Origin: Chloroflexota bacterium
GTDB taxonomy: Bacteria > Chloroflexota > Dehalococcoidia > Lucifugimonadales > JACPCL1
Length of the DNA: 32,826 nt
NCBI GenBank assembly: GCA_016202485.1
Contig: JACQOP010000053.1
Location: 1 to 32,826 of the forward strand
Reading direction: 5' to 3'
The notes under the pieces are model-generated. The model saw only the letters and a list, made by a program, of their open reading frames with translations. It was not told the origin of the DNA and made no database searches. This document shows positions 699 through 12,668 of this stretch, in pieces (the stretch's first letter is position 1; each line of letters begins with the position of its first letter). The position numbers and the translations under genes are program-made.

Positions 699-1202
699 TC
701 AACTTACGATGACACTACCAACTTGGCCTTCCCCCTCGTGGACTGTGCATACGAGTTTAAAGGTGCCAGGCTTGGTGAAGGTGACTTCCTGGGTTACGGC
801 TTTGCCGGGCTCAATATAGATATCAATGCCCAGGTCGGCCACCGTGAAGGTGTGGAAATCCATGGTGATGTTGAACTGGAGGGTGTAGGTCTTTCCAGAC
901 TGGAAGGAGTAGGTGTCGGGCACGAAGCTATAAGGAGCTTCACTTACTCTTACCTGGACGACGTTGCTGCTGCTCTCTTTTGTGGGCGTGGGGGTAGACC
1001 CGCCGGTGGCGGGAGGGGCGGGAAGGGTGGCTGTAGGTGTGGCAACTGGCCCACTACCAGTGGATGTAGCCGTTGGGGTAGGGGCTACGGAGGTTGGAGA
1101 AGCAGGCGGCGTGGTAGGCGTGGGTGCGGTTGACGTGCCGCCACATGCGATGAGGCCGGCTCCTACGAGGCCAGTTACCAGGAACAGTTTGAGATTCACC
1201 AT
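699..1202 (-). CDS. cupredoxin-like lipoprotein with Thr/Pro-rich linker
   Basis: ORF 699..1295 trimmed to MVNLKLFLVTGLVGAGLIACGG (lipobox LIAC). PT-rich linker, then cupredoxin-like C-terminus with FHTFTV and CTVHEGEGQ. Confidence 0.82.
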   Translation of the reverse strand: MVNLKLFLVTGLVGAGLIACGGTSTAPTPTTPPASPTSVAPTPTATSTGSGPVATPTATLPAPPATGGSTPTPTKESSSNVVQVRVSEAPYSFVPDTYSFQSGKTYTLQFNITMDFHTFTVADLGIDIYIEPGKAVTQEVTFTKPGTFKLVCTVHEGEGQVGSVIVS

Positions 1203-1249
1203 ACCCTCCAGGTTGTATTTGTATTTGATAGAGACGATGTGCAACGTCC

Positions 1250-1858
1250 CTAGAAGATTATGAGCTTGGCCGTCATCTCTGGGTGAAGGGGGCACTGGAC
1301 CAAGAATGTCCCCGTGGTATGGGCGGTAAAGAGGACCACATCCATGCCGCCTGCACTGCCAGGGGCATAGGCATGGACTTCGTTACCGGTGGGTTTTACG
1401 CCCGCAGGCGAGGTAGCCCGCCACGGCACGAACTCGCCGCTGTGGTGCATTTCGTGGTCTTCATCGGTGACGCCCTGTTCTTGCTCGCCTTCCGGCTCCG
1501 CAAGCCACAGCAAGTCTGCCGCCTCCAAACCCAGGACACGATAGTGATGTTCCGCTGTAGCCCGGTTCCGCAACACCAGTTTTACCCTCTGTCCAGCAGG
1601 GACAAAGACAGTGGACGGCTGTATGCCAGCGTCGGTGATGTCCACATTGATGGTGAAGTAGATACCAGCGTCCTCATCGGAAGTCCCGGTATGATGGACG
1701 TGGTCCTGCACTTCAACGGTGGGCCACTCTCGTGGGGCAGCGGTCTCCGGCGGCTCGGCCACGCCCTGGGCGCTGGTGCAGGCAACGAGCGCCAGCGAAA
1801 GGGGCATGAGACCGACCAAGAGACGATAAAATTTTTGCGTTGTTACCGGACCCATCAA
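1250..1858 (-). CDS. cupredoxin-domain lipoprotein
   Basis: Signal peptide with LVACTS lipobox; C-terminal TTGTFLVQCPLHPEMTAKLIIF with type-1 copper-like CPLHPEM motif. Confidence 0.82.
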   Translation of the reverse strand: MMGPVTTQKFYRLLVGLMPLSLALVACTSAQGVAEPPETAAPREWPTVEVQDHVHHTGTSDEDAGIYFTINVDITDAGIQPSTVFVPAGQRVKLVLRNRATAEHHYRVLGLEAADLLWLAEPEGEQEQGVTDEDHEMHHSGEFVPWRATSPAGVKPTGNEVHAYAPGSAGGMDVVLFTAHTTGTFLVQCPLHPEMTAKLIIF

Positions 1859-1881: not shown

Positions 1882-2376
1882 CTAGGGTTGAGTTTCCAGG
1901 AATTGCAGATAGGCAGCGACCGCCGTGTATTCCTCTTCGGTGAGCTTGATGAAGCCCATCATGGGGACGCCGCCTGCAATGGCGGCACGGACGTCGCCCT
2001 CATTTTTGCCCCGGATGTAAGGCGCGCCCACCAGGGCGGGACCGTTGCCCTTAGCATCCAGCCCGTGGCAGAAGGCGCAGCCCACATTGCCCGCGGTCTT
2101 ATCAAAGATCAGCTTCCCCAGCACCAGGGGGTCACTGCTTCCGACGTCCGGGAGAGTAGGCGTCGGCGTAGAAACATCTGTGGCTGGTGTGGCTGTAGGG
2201 GTGGGAGCCAGCACAGTGGTAGCAGGCGTGGGTGTGGCCACGGTGGTGGTAGGCGTGGGTGTTGGGAGAGGCGAAGTCTCACCCGTTGTCTCTCCGCAGG
2301 CAGGCAGAGTGGCCAGCATGACCGCCCCCAGCAAGAGCGTCCCGCCTACCAGCTTGATCAGGTCCCGATTCAACAT
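1882..2376 (-). CDS. c-type cytochrome lipoprotein
   Basis: ORF 1882..2484 trimmed to MLNRDLIKLVGGTLLLGAVMLATLPACGE. PT-rich linker and single CAFCH heme motif followed by ...PALVGAPYIRG...GGVPMMGF...YLQFLE. Confidence 0.88.
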   Translation of the reverse strand: MLNRDLIKLVGGTLLLGAVMLATLPACGETTGETSPLPTPTPTTTVATPTPATTVLAPTPTATPATDVSTPTPTLPDVGSSDPLVLGKLIFDKTAGNVGCAFCHGLDAKGNGPALVGAPYIRGKNEGDVRAAIAGGVPMMGFIKLTEEEYTAVAAYLQFLETQP

Positions 2377-2414: not shown

Positions 2415-2540
2415 TGGTGCACTCGCACCTGCAGGGCGGCATTTGGTACCTTGATGTGTGAACATCTATTATTAGATTACTCACCCCAACTCAAACAGGG
2501 CCTGAACAGAGCGGGAGGAAACCTGAACAAGGCCTGAACA
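2415..2540 (-). promoter_or_regulatory. promoter/operator plus leader hairpin, copy 1 (cytochrome/cupredoxin operon)
   Basis: On the minus strand, TGTTCAG at 2540-2534, 2529-2523 and 2508-2502 plus TGTTTGA at 2497-2491; TAATCT at 2479-2474; leader hairpin GGTGC-GAGT-GCACC at 2429-2416. Near-duplicate of 5240-5364. Confidence 0.7.
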
Positions 2541-2651
2541 TCCGTTGGCTTGGTTATTTTGCTGAGGTCAGCCTGGCCTCGCACGAAAGGGCCTGGAATC
2601 TGTTGTCTTTATGACCCAAACGCTCAACTGAAGGTTACTGTGATACGTCCT

Positions 2652-3587
2652 CTAGGCTCCGCATGTCCCTTTGGTTTGCTCTGAATTTGCTGCTTTGTCC
2701 GGCCCGTTGGCCCGCCAGAAGTCAAAAAACAAGGTCTCATCATAGTCTACGTTGAGGGAGTGCCCCTGGCGAGAAAACTCCACATACATAGAATTGATTC
2801 CCATGCTCAGCAAGCCCTCGTGGGTGGCCCGCACGTCCCCTTTCCATTCATCGTCCACGGAGCCGACACCGTTGAAGACCGCGTGGCCGCACAGGGCCTT
2901 TGCCCATTGTTCCGGGGTTGAGAGCCGTGGAAACAACCCTGGGGCTCCCAGCAGGGTAGCGAAACGCTCCGGGTGCTCCAGCATCAGATCAAAGGCCACC
3001 ATGCCGCCGTTGGAGAAGCCTGCGATGTGGACCTGGGTGGGGTCGCCACCGTAGCAGGCCAGGACCTCATCCACCACTTTAAAGGTGCGCCGCGCCTCGT
3101 AGTAATCGGTGTATTCCACGTCTACTGCATAAGGAAGCACGACACGGAAGTCGTCCACACCCGCGCCGCCGGAGAGGTAGTTGGCCCATACCCTCTGGGC
3201 GCTCCGACGGCTGCCTGTGCCCCCACCCAGGAACACGACGGTGGGGGCGTTGGGATTGTCCACCATTGGATGACGGACAAAGTAGGGGCCAGCCGGTGTG
3301 CCAAGGATTTCCTGGGGCTCTCCCCTCTCCGGCGCCACGCAGTACTCCGGCGCACCGGAGGGCGTCCAGGGCAAGGGAGTGGGCGTTGGTGTTGGCGTAA
3401 ACTCCACCGTTGGAGTTGGCGTAGGGAGAGGTGTGAGCGTTGGCGTTTGCGTAGGCGACGGCGCGGGCGTGATGGACGCCAAGGGTGTGACTGCAGCGGG
3501 CGCCGGGCTTGCGCAGGAGATGGACACAAGGGCCAGAATACCTGCCAGCCAGACCAGGCCGCTCGTCATGCTCGTCTCTCCTTCCAT
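2652..3587 (-). CDS. alpha/beta-hydrolase lipoprotein (PHB depolymerase / feruloyl-esterase-like) with Thr/Pro-rich linker
   Basis: Lipobox SISCAS, PTPTP-rich linker, nucleophile elbow GFSNGG, C-terminal GHS. Start may be the internal Met at 3569. Confidence 0.78.
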   Translation of the reverse strand: MEGETSMTSGLVWLAGILALVSISCASPAPAAVTPLASITPAPSPTQTPTLTPLPTPTPTVEFTPTPTPTPLPWTPSGAPEYCVAPERGEPQEILGTPAGPYFVRHPMVDNPNAPTVVFLGGGTGSRRSAQRVWANYLSGGAGVDDFRVVLPYAVDVEYTDYYEARRTFKVVDEVLACYGGDPTQVHIAGFSNGGMVAFDLMLEHPERFATLLGAPGLFPRLSTPEQWAKALCGHAVFNGVGSVDDEWKGDVRATHEGLLSMGINSMYVEFSRQGHSLNVDYDETLFFDFWRANGPDKAANSEQTKGTCGA

Positions 3588-3603
3588 GTAGGTGTTGTCC
3601 TTT

Positions 3604-3640
3604 GGTATGCCCTCAGCCCTGGCGGGGCTGAGGGCATACC
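3604..3640 (-). terminator. strong hairpin downstream of the beta-propeller gene
   Basis: GGTATGCCCTCAGCCC-TGGCG-GGGCTGAGGGCATACC inverted repeat between 3649 and 3587; no clear T-tract. Confidence 0.65.
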
Positions 3641-3648
3641 AGCACGAT

Positions 3649-5208
3649 TTACTTTGGCAGGGCCGCGATTACGGCCAGCCTGGCCACATACAGCTCCTTG
3701 GAGGGGCCGCCGTGGTCGGCCAGCACCTTGCCAGTCCAGTCCGGGTTGTACTGGACGAAGGCGCCCGAGTGGGTGTTCTCGCCGTTGGGCGTAGGGATGT
3801 AAGCCTCTACGGTCCTGGTGGCGAGGTCCAGGACAATGGTCTCAAACCCGGCCATGTTGCTCACCCAGATTTCATTGACGGCAGGGTCCGGGTGCAGGAA
3901 GCAATGGTCAATGCTCCTGGCGGAGCCGCCAAGGTAGATGGGGTTGATGATGCCACGCTTCGGGCGGAAGCTGGTCAGGTCAATGACCCCCAGGACGCTG
4001 CCGGTGTTGTGGCTTCCCTCGCCCTTGCCGACGGTATAGAGCTCGGTCTCGTCCCAGTTCATGCAGGCGCCGTAGGGTCCCGCCACACCGGCGCTGGTCT
4101 TGCCGACGACTTCATTGGTGGCATTGTCTAGCTTGAAGACCATGCTGGCATGGCCATCTACTACGTAGGTGAACTTGCCGTCGGCCGTGTGAGAGATGCC
4201 GATGGGGTGGTTTCCAACGCCTGCGATCACCGTCACCGCACGGGTCTCCAGGTTAATTTTTGCAATGCCGCCAATCTCCTCGGCCTCCTCGCCCCAGGCA
4301 ACAACTTTGAGGGAGACGTAGAGGTATTTGCCCGTGGGGTCTACCGTGAGGAAGGGGTGGCCCATCCAGTAGCCGGTGTCTTCCACGGTGATGGCCATGA
4401 CCACGCGGTTGTTATCCTTGGGGTCCAGGAGGAAGTGTGGGCCGCCATTAGAACCGAACCCATACTCCAGGACCAGGCGGTCGTTCCCTTTGGAGTCAAC
4501 GAAACCCGTGACGTGATGGAGCCTCTGGACGCGCATGGACCCCTGGAAACGGCTTTCCTGCTTGAGAATCTTGTCAATCTTCAGGGTCCGGGCGTTGATG
4601 ATGAGGGTGATATCCTCGGTCTTGTCTCCTACGGCCCGGGAGCTCTGGAGGTAGACCCACTTGCCGTCGGGCGAGACGCCAGTAGTATGGGGGGAGGTCT
4701 TTGTCCCCAGGTCATAGTGCGCGGATGTGACGACCTCCTTGGTGTAGGCGTCTACGATGTAGAACCCGGCGAACTGGTCGGCTCCACCCAAACTGGAGAA
4801 GTACACCGTGGGGTGGGCCTTGTTGTCCCAGGCATCGGGCCCGCTGGAATCAAAGGTGGCTATCAGCTTCAAACCGCCCCGGATGGATTCCGCCGTGTCC
4901 CAGCCGGTGGGCTGGGCGCCTGCTACGGCCGGCTGGAGCTGGCCCCCCTGGACCACCTGGCTGGGAGCGAGTCCCGCCAGTTGCTGCTGGAGGGCGGTCA
5001 TGTCCTGCTCCAGGGAGGTCACCTGCTGTTCCTGGCTCTTAAGCTGCCCAGAGGCTACCTGGAGCTCCTGCTCCTTAGCTGCTAACTGGGCCTTGGCAGC
5101 ATCCAGATCCTCTTGGGAGACGCCGCTGCCGCTACAAGCAGCCACGGCCAGCACCGCGACCCCGATAAGGGCCGGCGCTACTATTCTCCACCTACTTCCG
5201 ATTGCCAT
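3649..5208 (-). CDS. exported YVTN-like beta-propeller lipoprotein with N-terminal coiled coil
   Basis: ORF trimmed to MAIGSRWRIVAPALIGVAVLAVAACSGSG (lipobox). Coiled coil DAAKAQLAAKEQELQVASGQLKSQEQQ, then propeller blades (VSPDGKWVYLQSS, VDPTGKYLYVS, HTADGKFTYVVDG). Confidence 0.8.
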   Translation of the reverse strand: MAIGSRWRIVAPALIGVAVLAVAACSGSGVSQEDLDAAKAQLAAKEQELQVASGQLKSQEQQVTSLEQDMTALQQQLAGLAPSQVVQGGQLQPAVAGAQPTGWDTAESIRGGLKLIATFDSSGPDAWDNKAHPTVYFSSLGGADQFAGFYIVDAYTKEVVTSAHYDLGTKTSPHTTGVSPDGKWVYLQSSRAVGDKTEDITLIINARTLKIDKILKQESRFQGSMRVQRLHHVTGFVDSKGNDRLVLEYGFGSNGGPHFLLDPKDNNRVVMAITVEDTGYWMGHPFLTVDPTGKYLYVSLKVVAWGEEAEEIGGIAKINLETRAVTVIAGVGNHPIGISHTADGKFTYVVDGHASMVFKLDNATNEVVGKTSAGVAGPYGACMNWDETELYTVGKGEGSHNTGSVLGVIDLTSFRPKRGIINPIYLGGSARSIDHCFLHPDPAVNEIWVSNMAGFETIVLDLATRTVEAYIPTPNGENTHSGAFVQYNPDWTGKVLADHGGPSKELYVARLAVIAALPK

Positions 5209-5239
5209 GTTGTGCTCCTTTCGCATTCTTGCCGCCGCC

Positions 5240-5364
5240 TGGTGCACTCGCACCTGCCGGGCGGCATTAGGTACCTTGGTGTGTGCGCATCTATTACTAG
5301 ATTACCCACTTCAACCAAACAGGGCCTGAACAGAGCGGGGGAAACCCTGAATATGGCCTGAACA
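5240..5364 (-). promoter_or_regulatory. promoter/operator plus leader hairpin, copy 2 (beta-propeller gene)
   Basis: TGTTCAG 5364-5358, TATTCAG 5353-5347, TGTTCAG 5332-5326, TGTTTGG 5321-5315; TAATCT 5304-5299; hairpin GGTGCACTCGCACC 5241-5254. Confidence 0.7.
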
Positions 5365-5370
5365 GCCATG

Positions 5371-5742
5371 TTATGCCTTGGGCCTCTTGCTACGTTTGCC
5401 CACCCCCTTTCCCCCATGAATGGCCTCCAACAGGCCGGCAAGGTCTGTTTGAAGGACCCGCTGCATGTGGTATACCTCTATGTCATTGCGGTTAACCCCG
5501 AGGACCACCACCCGTGCCAGAGGATGCCGTTCCAGCATTTGAGTGATGACTGCTTCATCCAGGAGGCCCTGAGCATCCAGAACGATTGCTCGGGGGTCCA
5601 GGGCCTGGATCCGGTCCTGCAGGTCAGGGACGTCGTGAGGCACCAGTGCGAGTTCAAGGGTGTCCACGTCCTCCAAGAGGCGCTGAATACCAGCGACAAG
5701 GATGGAGCGATTGGTGACCAGGACTACTCGTTTGGTTGGCAT
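5371..5742 (-). CDS. stand-alone receiver-like (degenerate CheY-type) protein
   Basis: MPTKRVVLVTNRSILVAGIQRLLEDVDTLELALV...RAIVLDAQGLLDEAVITQML: response-regulator-like fold pattern, no output domain. Upstream Met at 5760 also possible. Confidence 0.6.
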   Translation of the reverse strand: MPTKRVVLVTNRSILVAGIQRLLEDVDTLELALVPHDVPDLQDRIQALDPRAIVLDAQGLLDEAVITQMLERHPLARVVVLGVNRNDIEVYHMQRVLQTDLAGLLEAIHGGKGVGKRSKRPKA

Positions 5743-5854
5743 GTGGACCGCCGATTGCACTTGAAGGTTCTCCCCACGCTCTCACTTCATACTATGGGAC
5801 ACGCCTGGAGGATGGGGCACGCCTTGTTCAAGTAGTCATGGCCCACTAAAAACA

Positions 5855-5879
5855 GTAGGCCCCTGGGTAAGGGGCCTAC
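5855..5879 (-). terminator. rho-independent terminator of the UspA-HK-RR operon
   Basis: Perfect GTAGGCCCCT-TACCC-AGGGGCCTAC stem followed on the minus strand by TGTTTTTAG. Confidence 0.8.
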
Positions 5880-5912
5880 CAAGTTGGGTAGGGAGATGAA
5901 TCAAATCGTCGT

Positions 5913-6569
5913 TCAGGGGTCTCTGGGAGGCCTGTGGGCGAATCCGCGCTCCAACGCCCAGGCCACCACCTGGGCACGGTTCTTGAGGTGGAGCTTGCTG
6001 AGGATATTCTTCATGTGATAGTTCACGGTGTTTTCCGAAATTACGAGGGCTGCAGCGATCTCTTTGTTGGCCGCGCCCTGAGCGACCTGCTCTAACACGT
6101 CATACTCCCGTTCGGTGAGCTCAGTTGCTGTTTCCGGCTGTTCTCTGCCCACTGAGAGGTGGGCAAACTCCTGGAGGAGGCGCCTGGCCAGGCCGGGGGA
6201 CATTGCTGGCTCGTCCTTCTCCATGCGTTTGACCAGTTCAGCGAACTCCTCTTCTCGGAGGTTCTTTAACAGATAGCCCTCGGCTCCGCTTTTGATGGCC
6301 TCAAAGAGGTCTTGCTCATCGTCGGATACGGTTAACATGATGACCCGTATGGCGGGGGACTGGGCTTTGATGGCACGGGTAGCCTCCAGGCCGTTAAGGC
6401 TGGGCATATTGATGTCCATGAACACCAGGTCAGGGGAAAGCTCGGCCGCTTTCTTTACTGCTTCCCACCCGTCCCCCGCCTCCCCGACGACCTGGAGGCC
6501 CCAGGCGCGCAAGAGGCTGGCCAGGCCAGCGCGGAATAGGGCGTGATCGTCCACGAGCATCACCCGCAT
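5913..6569 (-). CDS. NarL/LuxR-family two-component response regulator
   Basis: Receiver MRVMLVDDHALFRAGL...DLVFMDINMPSLNG...; LuxR HTH LTEREYDVLEQVAQGAANKEIAAALVISENTVNYHMKNILSKLHLKNRAQ. Confidence 0.95.
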   Translation of the reverse strand: MRVMLVDDHALFRAGLASLLRAWGLQVVGEAGDGWEAVKKAAELSPDLVFMDINMPSLNGLEATRAIKAQSPAIRVIMLTVSDDEQDLFEAIKSGAEGYLLKNLREEEFAELVKRMEKDEPAMSPGLARRLLQEFAHLSVGREQPETATELTEREYDVLEQVAQGAANKEIAAALVISENTVNYHMKNILSKLHLKNRAQVVAWALERGFAHRPPRDP

Positions 6570-6575
6570 AAGGCA

Positions 6576-8495
6576 TTACCCTCGCTGTCCCGACACTGGG
6601 ACTGAGACGGTCACCGTGGTACCCTGACCGGGGTAAGAGGTAATGGCCAGGGCGCCGCCGACGGCTTCAGCCCGCTCCCGCATGGTCTGAAGGCCAAAGC
6701 GGGGCCACCCCTTGGAGGGAAGCCGCTCCAGGTCAAAACCGGTCCCATTATCAGCAATGGCGATGTTCAGTGCAGTCTGGTTGAGATGCATTGTTACTAC
6801 CACTTCGCTGGCCCGTGCGTGCTTGCGGACATTGGTGAGAGCTTCTTGCAGAATACGCATGAGCTGGATCTCTGTGGAGGGAAGCAAGGGAGGGAACTGG
6901 CTGTCATTGACTACGGAGACCTTAATACCGGCGAGTTCCATGTAGCGCTGAATGTACTCCTGAATGGCAAAGAGCAACCCCTCTTGCCGGAGAGTAGCGG
7001 TCCGCAGGCCCAGGATGCCTTCCCGGACGTCTGCGTACAGGTCGCGGGTGATGTCCCCCATCCTCGTGAGCTCTTCGCGGGCGTCAGCCAGCCGGTTGTC
7101 AGCGAGGAGCTTATTCACGGCGATGGTCTGGGTGTTGATGTAGCCCAGAAGCTGCGCCATACCGTCGTGCATCTCCCGGGCCAGGCGTTCGCGTTCCTGA
7201 AGCACCGCGGTGTCCTGCACCTGCTGGTACAGGCGGCTGTTTTCAATAGCGATGGCCAGCCATTCGCCAACGCCTTCCAGGATGCGAGTTTCGCCCGAAT
7301 TCTTCAGAACATCAGGGGAAACGGCAGCCACTGCCAGCACGCCTACCAGTCTGCCCCGATAGAGCAGGGGCAAGGCACAGAAGGTGTGGAAGCCTGCTCT
7401 CAGCACCTCTTGTCGGAGGAAGTCGGGATGAGCAGGGAGGTCATGGGTAAGGAAGAGGGCGCCGCTTTGGGCCACCTTGCCGGGGACGCCTTCGCCGACA
7501 GCAAAGCTCGTCCGCTCCATAAAGGCCTCACGGTGCAAGCCCCGGTGGCAGCACAGGGTTAAGGTCTGTCCTCCTTCCATGAGCCACACCTCTGCTGCAT
7601 CGGCAGAAGCGACCTGGAGCACCGTGTCCAGGGATGTGTCCAACAGCTCATCCAAGTCAAAGGAGGACGTGACCACTTTACCGACAGAAAGGAGGGCACT
7701 GAGCTCGCGATTCTGTGACTGGGACTGCTCGTAGAGGACGGCTTTGCGTATTGCCATTCCCAACTGGCCGCCGACGTTACCCAGGAATGTGCGGTCATCC
7801 AGGGAATAGCGGCGCTTGTTGTGGTTGGCGATGGCCAGGATACCATTGACTTCGCCTTCGGATTTCAGGGGCGCACTAATGAAGGCAGCAATACCCTCCT
7901 GGCGCGCCCTTTCATGGACGCCAGGGTCTTTAAACACGTCTTCATTGATGACCGGGCGGCCGGTCTGGTAGACCTCATATGCCACCCTGTCATCTCTGAG
8001 CTTGGCGCGTTGGAGCCGACGCGCCATTTCCTGGGAGAAACCGCTGTAACAGGCTACGGAGTGCTCTTCGGCTTCTGCATCTATGAGGCAGATCAGGCCG
8101 GCGTCGGCGCGAATGGTAGGGAGGATATGTCCGAGGCTAGCCTGGAGGAGGTCCAGGAAGGGCAGGTTAGCAGTAGACGCAGCGGCAATACCGTTGAGGG
8201 CCGCGAGCTGCTGGTTTTGGGCAAGGATTCGTTGTTGCAGTCTTTCTAATAAGCGAAAGATGGTCAAGGAGAACATGATTACCGCCACAGCCACTACTGC
8301 ATAGAAGGCGAGGACCCCGGGCAAGGCTTCAAACTGGCGCGCCAGGAGGGTGTGGCGCAGGACATCCAGGAGTACCAAGAAGGCGATGGGCAGCACCACC
8401 GAGGCACAGCGGAGCAGCCGGAGGTTTACACCCCAGCCTTCCTGGGGGTAATCCTCCCTGGCGGCCATTTCCCACAACCTTCTGATGAGTTCCAA
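6576..8495 (-). CDS. sensor histidine kinase: two N-terminal TM helices, two GAF domains, HisKA_3 and HATPase
   Basis: ERERLAREMHDGMAQLLGYI (HisKA_3), LQEALTNVRKHARAS and NGTGFD..GLQTMRERAEAVGG (ATPase), two GAF-like segments. Seven bp from the RR start. Confidence 0.95.
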   Translation of the reverse strand: MELIRRLWEMAAREDYPQEGWGVNLRLLRCASVVLPIAFLVLLDVLRHTLLARQFEALPGVLAFYAVVAVAVIMFSLTIFRLLERLQQRILAQNQQLAALNGIAAASTANLPFLDLLQASLGHILPTIRADAGLICLIDAEAEEHSVACYSGFSQEMARRLQRAKLRDDRVAYEVYQTGRPVINEDVFKDPGVHERARQEGIAAFISAPLKSEGEVNGILAIANHNKRRYSLDDRTFLGNVGGQLGMAIRKAVLYEQSQSQNRELSALLSVGKVVTSSFDLDELLDTSLDTVLQVASADAAEVWLMEGGQTLTLCCHRGLHREAFMERTSFAVGEGVPGKVAQSGALFLTHDLPAHPDFLRQEVLRAGFHTFCALPLLYRGRLVGVLAVAAVSPDVLKNSGETRILEGVGEWLAIAIENSRLYQQVQDTAVLQERERLAREMHDGMAQLLGYINTQTIAVNKLLADNRLADAREELTRMGDITRDLYADVREGILGLRTATLRQEGLLFAIQEYIQRYMELAGIKVSVVNDSQFPPLLPSTEIQLMRILQEALTNVRKHARASEVVVTMHLNQTALNIAIADNGTGFDLERLPSKGWPRFGLQTMRERAEAVGGALAITSYPGQGTTVTVSVPVSGQRG

Positions 8496-8506
8496 GAGAA
8501 GACCGT

Positions 8507-9406
8507 CTACTGCTTGGCAACGTCCTTATCCGGTTGGATCAAGAGCACAGGGCGGGTCTGGCGCTCCAGAACGGCGGCAGCCACGCTGCCCATGGGCAGT
8601 TTGCCATTGTCCCCCATGCCGTGGGTAGACATGGCGATAAGGTCTGCGGGGGCCTCGTCTGCATAGCGGAGAATGTCATCCACTGGCGAGCCGCTGGTAA
8701 CGCGCCAGCCTACCTTGAGGGTTTGGCTGGACAGGGTTTGGGTCATTTGCTGGAGGTAGTCGCTGATAGCCTCGGTGGCCTGAACCTGGGATGGGGTGGG
8801 AGGACGCTGAGCGTGGCCCTCGGCGGGGACTACGTGCAGGAGGACGATTTCCATGCCCATAGCCTCGGCCATGGCAGCAACCACGGGCAGGACTGATTCG
8901 GCAAGTTTTGAGCCGTCCAAAGGGACGAGTATGCGGTAATAGGTGGGCTTCCACTTTTGAAATATCATGGATGACCTCATGGTGAGCTCTGTCTTGAGTG
9001 TAGAGGTGGATAAAGGGATTGGAGCCTTATGGGCGCCCAGCTCTGCCAGACTGTTGGCCAGGCGCGAGAAGTTTGCCATGGGGAAAGGTTTTGCCAGGGT
9101 TACTACTGAGCCGAAAGCCTGGATAATGCGTATGTCCCAACTATCGTCCAGGAGGAGCAGGGATGGCTGCGGCTGTCCCTGACACCATTTTGCCAGGGCG
9201 TGGTAGGTTTCTGCCTGCCCTTCACTATACCAGCTTAGGTCCAGAACCCATAGTTCTGTATCCCAGGTGGTCTTGGAGGCCAGGAAGCTCAGGGGCAGCT
9301 TTGGGTTCACCAGGTGGATATCCGCCCGGTGGCCCTGGGCTGCCAGGTTCCGGGCAAGCAGGACGCTAAACACCCGGTCTTCGCTTAGGATTGTGATGTG
9401 TGCCAT
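8507..9406 (-). CDS. pseudo-receiver-UspA fusion protein
   Basis: Start set at MAHITILSEDRVF (Met19 of ORF 8507..9460). C-terminal UspA domain YYRILVPLDGSKLAESVLP...STHGMGDNGKLPMGSVAAAVL; N-terminal ~130 aa receiver-like ending VVTLAKPF. Confidence 0.85.
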   Translation of the reverse strand: MAHITILSEDRVFSVLLARNLAAQGHRADIHLVNPKLPLSFLASKTTWDTELWVLDLSWYSEGQAETYHALAKWCQGQPQPSLLLLDDSWDIRIIQAFGSVVTLAKPFPMANFSRLANSLAELGAHKAPIPLSTSTLKTELTMRSSMIFQKWKPTYYRILVPLDGSKLAESVLPVVAAMAEAMGMEIVLLHVVPAEGHAQRPPTPSQVQATEAISDYLQQMTQTLSSQTLKVGWRVTSGSPVDDILRYADEAPADLIAMSTHGMGDNGKLPMGSVAAAVLERQTRPVLLIQPDKDVAKQ

Positions 9407-9437
9407 GACCTTCCAAGTGCCGAGGGGTACAGTTACA

Positions 9438-9504
9438 AGAATAGACTGAGAAAGACTCATAATGCCTGAACACGCAGAGAATGTCCCTGAATAAGCCCTG
9501 AAAA
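9438..9504 (-). promoter_or_regulatory. promoter/operator, copy 3 (UspA-HK-RR operon)
   Basis: TTTTCAG 9504-9498, TATTCAG 9493-9487, TGTTCAG 9472-9466; TATTCT at 9443-9438. Same 11/21 bp spacing as copies 1 and 2. Confidence 0.6.
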
Positions 9505-12570: not shown

Positions 12571-12668
12571 TGGCGGGAGCGCGTGGGAGTCGAACGCACC
12601 CTCCGCCGCGCAGGCGGCGGAGCAACGGGTTTGAAGCCCGCGGGAGCCACCGGGCCCCTTCCGCTCCC
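12571..12668 (-). tRNA. selC: tRNA-Sec (anticodon TCA), CCA encoded
   Basis: Minus strand GGGAGCGG-AA-GGGGCC-CGGT-GGCTCC-C-GCGGG-CTTCAAA-CCCGT-TG-CTCCGCCGC-CTGC-GCGGCGGAG-G-GTGCG-TTCGACT-CCCAC-GCGCTCCC-G-CCA. It has a 6-bp D-stem with 4-nt loop, TCA anticodon and a 9-bp variable arm; one acceptor and one T-stem mismatch. Confidence 0.92.

Follow-up and report, generated by a model that had tools for sequence, protein, structure and literature searches.

A repeated operator-promoter in front of stress and respiration genes of Chloroflexota, with a KdpE-like regulator as the most likely binder

Operators, promoters and genes in the window

The window, i.e., the whole stretch of 32,826 nucleotides that was analysed, contains three operators made of direct repeats on the minus strand, each with a -10 element starting 59 nt past the first T of the operator (Table 1). 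The heptamer coordinates and spacing given for the three loci in a preliminary description, as well as the positioned -10 boxes, were borne out. Exact TTCAGG triplets occurred three times in the window, compared with a mean of 0.03 in shuffled sequences. The two cupredoxin-like genes (699..1858) are presumably co-transcribed with the cytochrome c gene behind operator 1. Two mechanical open reading frame starts lie above a promoter, one at 2484 (cytochrome c, above promoter 1) and one at 9460 (universal stress protein (Usp), above the -10 box of promoter 3). The cytochrome c gene likely starts at 2376 (MLNRDLIKL), and the Usp gene probably at ATG 9406 (MAHITILSEDR), in agreement with homologues in three other genomes (G001, G002 and G003).

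Table 1 Operators, promoter elements and genes of the three loci
Feature	Position	Strand	Details
Operator 1	2490..2538	minus	TTCAGG 2538-2533, TTCAGG 2527-2522, TTCAGG 2506-2501, fourth box TTTGAG 2495-2490
Promoter 1, -10 element TAATCT	2474..2479	minus	transcription start predicted at ~2467
Cytochrome c family protein	1882..2376	minus	first gene 3' of operator 1
Two cupredoxin-like genes	1250..1858 and 699..1295	minus	same direction, after the cytochrome c gene
Operator 2	5314..5362	minus	TTCAGG 5362-5357, ATTCAGG-type second box 5351-5346, TTCAGG 5330-5325, fourth box TTTGGT 5319-5314
Promoter 2, -10 element TAATCT	5298..5303	minus	transcription start predicted at ~5291
Lipoprotein-like protein	3649..5208	minus	first gene 3' of operator 2; likely start MAIGSRWR at 5208; without Pfam match
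Weak carboxylesterase match	2652..3587	minus	next gene after the lipoprotein-like gene
Operator 3	9454..9502	minus	TTCAGG 9502-9497, TTCAGG 9491-9486, TTCAGG 9470-9465, poor fourth box TGAGTC 9459-9454
Promoter 3, -10 element TATTCT	9438..9443	minus	transcription start predicted at ~9431
Universal stress protein (Usp)	8507..9406	minus	operon of operator 3
GAF-GAF-HisKA_3 histidine kinase	6576..8495	minus	operon of operator 3 (target)
NarL-type response regulator	5913..6569	minus	last gene of the operator 3 operon; putative target

All three sites are present, but sites 1 and 2 are not independent of each other. Operators 1 and 2 are identical at 134 of 158 positions across operator and leader and represent one duplicated promoter with its leader, while site 3 has only the boxes in common with them. 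The window therefore holds two independent instances.

Architecture of the operator

The operator unit consists of four hexamers, TTCAGG-N5-TTCAGG-N15-TTCAGG-N5-TTCAGG, starting at positions 0, 11, 32 and 43, followed by a TAnnnT that starts at 58-59. All boxes run head-to-tail in one orientation, and inverted heptamer pairs of the NarL/FixJ type were absent. The fourth box ends at position 48, so that a repeat box stands about 10 bp above the -10 element. What had been described as a weaker fourth heptamer is indeed a fourth half-site at position 43: distant genomes found with a three-box pattern have a TTCAGG-like sequence there, outside the search pattern.

The window's own genome (G000; 1.87 Mb, 172 contigs, 77% complete) was searched by pattern. 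The triplet with up to three mismatches gave 20 sites genome-wide, compared with one for a reversed-pattern control, and the four-box pattern gave 15 matches versus none in the control. The spacing was examined in four congeneric genomes around every exact TTCAGG-N5-TTCAGG pair, with offsets from -70 to +100 scored. There were 47 such pairs (none in the control), and extra boxes around them concentrated at +32 (20), +43 (10), -21 (8) and -32 (6), with a register one base shorter at -31, +31 and +42 (4 each) and -20 (3); any remaining offset had at most two boxes. The pairs were mostly intergenic, with 7 of 48 within open reading frames of at least 250 amino acids versus 48% of random positions. 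A TAnnnT beginning at 58-59 was present in 31 of the 39 sites from the genus, in 19 of 24 sites from further named Chloroflexota and in 24 of the 34 TTCACG sites, but was clear in only 3 of 12 sites of two genomes of the class (G125 and G147). Within the genus and in distant families, independent sequences retain the boxes and the -10 element at equal distances. The earlier proposal of a putative activator site, in which direct repeats follow the helical phase and the -10 box has a set position, is supported. At one locus of G000 (L044, contig C84, 15266-15417), two operators face away from each other within a single intergenic stretch, forming a divergent promoter pair.

Distribution and half-site variants

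Named genomes with exact triplets included the groundwater Chloroflexi metagenome-assembled genomes (MAGs) JACQUI, JACQUH, JACPCL, JACQUM and JACQUQ, together with CADDYW 'isolate 7', JADGGD HOG57, JAJPKB Centralia_MAG_593 and Anaerolineae/Anaerolineales MAGs. Distant Chloroflexota retain the TTCAGG half-site. In other genera of the window's class (a sample of 294 genomes), the same 0/11/32/43 layout occurs with TTCACG or TTCATG. The constant spacing together with the altered half-site argues for one regulator type with a shifted specificity. Single matches in Glycomyces, Bacteroidota and similar genomes were taken as chance or coding matches, and the lone triplet of Ktedonobacter, with AATCGT at the fourth box, was likewise taken as chance.

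A KdpE-like regulator and its sensor kinase

An orthologous KdpE-type (OmpR/PhoB-family) response regulator with the recognition helix YLWAYxRRLR was found in 10 of the 11 tested Chloroflexota genomes with the TTCAGG triplet. The ortholog scored 370-479 bits in these ten genomes versus 173-289 bits in four control genomes, which include Ktedonobacter, itself a member of the Chloroflexota, whose single triplet has no fourth box. Among the 294 genomes of the class, only G125, G147 and G168 exceeded 370 bits, and G168 has the regulator yet no four-box match. The stand-alone regulator adjoins a GAF kinase in TTCAGG genomes, and in Centralia_MAG_593 a site stands in front of a gene neighbouring it. 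In the window's genome, the kinase lies at 196-1848 of contig C46 (77% identity) and the next gene encodes the first 79 residues of the regulator before the contig ends; the DNA-binding domain is absent from the assembly.

The closest solved structure to the regulator is KdpE (4KNY, E 1e-55, over the whole length). However, all ten orthologs have W at position 193, where R193 is conserved among KdpE orthologs, and we therefore name the regulator KdpE-like rather than KdpE. Its neighbours in G001, G002 and G003 are acyl-CoA dehydrogenase-like, MFS and TypA-like genes, with no kdpFABC or KdpD gene among them. Literature searches on two-component operators of Chloroflexota returned nothing matching.

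The GAF domain of the kinase in the window's genome matches DosT (2.6e-43) and DevS (3e-40). In the alignment, the histidine of its GFPPNHPIM stretch falls on position 92 of the chain in the DevS GAF structure, which is His149 because the DevS construct begins with GAMDP-Asp63. His149 is the proximal heme ligand (PMC4082495). This stretch is also found in the kinases of G001, G125 and G147, with the His149 column conserved, and the kinase core is of the HisKA type. The GAF domain probably holds heme and may sense O2, NO or the redox state.

Fused regulators and a proposed shift in specificity

All Trans_reg_C proteins were listed in 27 genomes. Prominent in the TTCACG genomes is a protein of ~800-1100 amino acids in which PAS/GAF, HisKA, HATPase, receiver and winged helix-turn-helix (wHTH) domains are fused. 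A site lies just past the stop codon of the fusion gene in five genomes (G187, G141, G004, G096 and G136), and in G187 and G141 this 3' site precedes a receiver-only gene. Across the 294 genomes, 8 of 13 genomes with the fusion (at least 690 bits) had two or more sites versus 4 of 281 others (Fisher 5e-10, a value that ignores shared ancestry). Exceptions include G062, G056, G041 and G297, which have the fusion without a four-box match, G126, with one match, and G048, with two sites and no fusion. The fusion gene of G033 reads through a TAG. As a regulator everywhere, the fusion protein was rejected because most TTCAGG genomes lack it, and attention turned to the stand-alone regulator; G002 has both.

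Regulators of the TTCAGG lineage have YLWAYxRRLR as recognition helix, and the fusions have LVRSFIRNLR (with small variants). In KdpE numbering assigned by alignment, TTCAGG goes with W193/R198 and TTCACG with R193/N198, and half-site and helix change together. R193 is reported to be required for DNA binding by KdpE and may read bases, while position 198 corresponds to the base-reading R201 of PhoB (PMC3264566). This paired change of half-site and helix offers a natural experiment on wHTH specificity. In G002, a TTCACA-N5-TGCACG pair lies behind the fused gene (L243, contig C52), and both specificities may coexist in one cell.

A family of lower-scoring fused kinases (~480-630 bits; several per genome in f19, f38, f56 and f69) showed no corresponding sites at the search threshold and was set aside. 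In G157, G102, G273, G175, G312 and others, another family of kinase-receiver-wHTH fusions has expanded, with up to four or more members per genome. Receiver-only proteins recur behind the operator (L169, L173, L205 and L206), three times beside a fused or KdpE-like regulator, and are possibly phosphate sinks or connectors. In G004, the operator 3' of the fused regulator precedes a gene for a sigma-70 family factor (L174), which would relay the signal to a further tier.

Target genes

In the window's genome, sites precede genes for Usp (window, C10 and C165), cytochrome c and cupredoxins (window), Fe-S and NrfD proteins (C103), a molybdopterin dehydrogenase (C149) and PutA (C165), with an NQR2-like oxidoreductase further downstream of another site (C146). 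Operons of a kinase and a NarL-type regulator also have a site in the window and on C123; the operons at window site 3, L049, L066 and L078 are distinct targets of this kind. The targets in other genomes include multicopper oxidases, molybdopterin oxidoreductases, an NDH2-like protein, GNAT and a sigma-70 factor; a NosZ-type protein is encoded by the second gene at L081 and a cytochrome cd1 protein at L157. By gene content, the targets point to redox or anaerobic adaptation.

Alternative explanations

The preliminary description had proposed that the NarL-type regulator of the window (5913..6569) binds the heptamers and autoregulates its own operon, with an OmpR/PhoB-type regulator encoded elsewhere as the alternative. 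Operator 3 does stand before that operon, and the kinase and NarL-type operons L049, L066 and L078 carry sites as well. However, a KdpE-type regulator tracks the motif across genomes (or, with TTCACG/TTCATG sites, the kinase-receiver-wHTH fusion does), and the sites are head-to-tail repeats with an 11-bp period, whereas NarL-family sites are typically inverted pairs. Since several different NarL-type operons are targets, a lower tier fits better than a single autoregulator. Binding by the window's NarL-type regulator is thus unsupported and in our view quite unlikely, and this protein is probably a downstream tier or target of the circuit; the alternative is supported by the co-occurrence of the receiver-wHTH regulator with the motif. 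Another OmpR-type regulator encoded in this genome might bind the operator instead, for example the one encoded on C165 behind Usp and PutA, where a site stands at the operon head, the regulator gene lies near the operon end and its product has R at position 198. Yet position 193 of this protein is K, not W, and a wHTH search found no close ortholog in the site-bearing congeners (37% to the query); we consider such a binder unlikely.

An ordinary PHO box bound by PhoB, heading a phosphate-starvation regulon, would account for some of the features. The TTCACG/TTCATG half-site resembles GTTCACC, the repeat of actinobacterial PHO boxes. The 11-bp direct repeats beside the -10 element, in place of a -35 element, also have the pho-box layout (PMC4971064). 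On the other hand, no phosphate-uptake or phosphatase family appeared among the target proteins scanned, which cover the targets incompletely, the closest solved regulator is KdpE rather than PhoB, and a PhoB-like regulator on C123 lacks a four-box site immediately upstream, all of which makes a PHO box very unlikely. It should be noted that operators 1 and 2 with their leader agree at 134 of 158 positions, as expected of a duplicated or mobile repeat without a regulatory role. Such a repeat would be virtually inconceivable as the general explanation: apart from the boxes and the -10 element, the remaining sites diverge in sequence yet keep the spacing, both within the genus and in distant families, and these independent sequences refute it for the site family as a whole.

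Proposed mechanism and comparison with known systems

The three sites are most likely copies of a widespread switch that fronts dozens of Chloroflexota genes for stress and respiration and is bound by a KdpE-like protein. We consider it likely that they serve as activator operator-promoters of the KdpE-type regulator with the YLWAYxRRLR helix, acting under a DosT/DevS-like kinase. The four TTCAGG half-sites would act as two pairs, with an 11-bp step within each pair and 32 bp, about three helical turns, between the starts of the pairs. On the simplest reading, each pair may hold one head-to-tail dimer of the regulator, both dimers would occupy a single DNA face, and the proximal dimer would contact RNA polymerase. 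Because the proximal pair lies around -35 and ends 10 bp above TAnnnT, it is predicted to take the place of a -35 element in the manner of a pho box. In the window's genome, the binder would be encoded by the gene after the kinase on C46. The putative heme-GAF domain of this kinase would sense O2, NO or the redox state, and the phosphorylated regulator would then activate Usp, electron-transfer, denitrification-type and secondary two-component genes. Taken as a whole, the sites are best read as a regulon activated by redox state or anaerobiosis, which would operate in the way of DosSR with KdpE-like components.

We advance more tentatively, at a little less than even confidence, a Chloroflexota-wide anaerobiosis or dormancy circuit parallel to DosSR, in which a DosT-like sensor and a KdpE-like regulator would act through the 0/11/32/43 operator, with the two proteins fused in sister lineages, where the half-site would have moved from TTCAGG to TTCACG along with the helix.

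At E. coli kdpFABC, KdpE binds TTTATA-N5-TTTACA, a direct repeat of 6-bp units with 5 bp between them (PMC3264566). This hexamer-N5-hexamer arrangement is the geometry of one pair here, and the common variant TTCACA is one base from TTTACA. In contrast to the single pair of KdpE, the four half-sites here form two pairs at a distance of 32 bp, the regulator has W and R where KdpE has R193 and H198, the kinase is of a DosT-like GAF type rather than of KdpD architecture, and the neighbouring genes are not kdp genes. Consecutive pho boxes run in 22-bp steps, whereas the pair-to-pair distance here is 32 (or 31) bp. The pho box nevertheless shares the head-to-tail 11-bp repeats near -10 and the replacement of -35, since it usually stands beside the -10 element in place of -35 and consists of 11-bp direct repeats (PMC4971064).

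The DosS/DosT-DosR system of Mycobacterium tuberculosis is alike in its sensor GAF domain with a proximal histidine. Its regulon contains Usp, and Usp and respiration genes belong to both regulons. Unlike DosSR, the system described here has a HisKA-type kinase core, a receiver-wHTH regulator of the KdpE type instead of the NarL/FixJ type, and a direct rather than an inverted repeat. The fusions of the sister lineages resemble hybrid two-component systems, such as those of Bacteroides, in joining kinase, receiver and DNA-binding domain in one protein. The C-terminal domain is of the AraC type in the Bacteroides hybrids, whereas here it is an OmpR-type wHTH, and the sensor domains are PAS/GAF.

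The operators, regulators and signals of uncultured Chloroflexota are almost undescribed. For groundwater and soil members of this phylum, the sequence by itself provides an operator, its probable regulator and sensor, the layout of the promoter and a list of targets that includes NosZ- and cytochrome cd1-like genes.

Other features of the window

The leaders at 2415-2480 and 5240-5305 (minus strand) are near-identical, and each contains a perfect small hairpin, GGTGC-GAGT-GCACC, which is probably part of the duplication. An Rfam scan of the operator 2 leader gave at most a chance match, and hence we do not claim a riboswitch. Farther along the window, a selenocysteine tRNA gene is located at 12575-12668 on the minus strand (Rfam RF01852, 63 bits), suggesting that this lineage uses selenocysteine.
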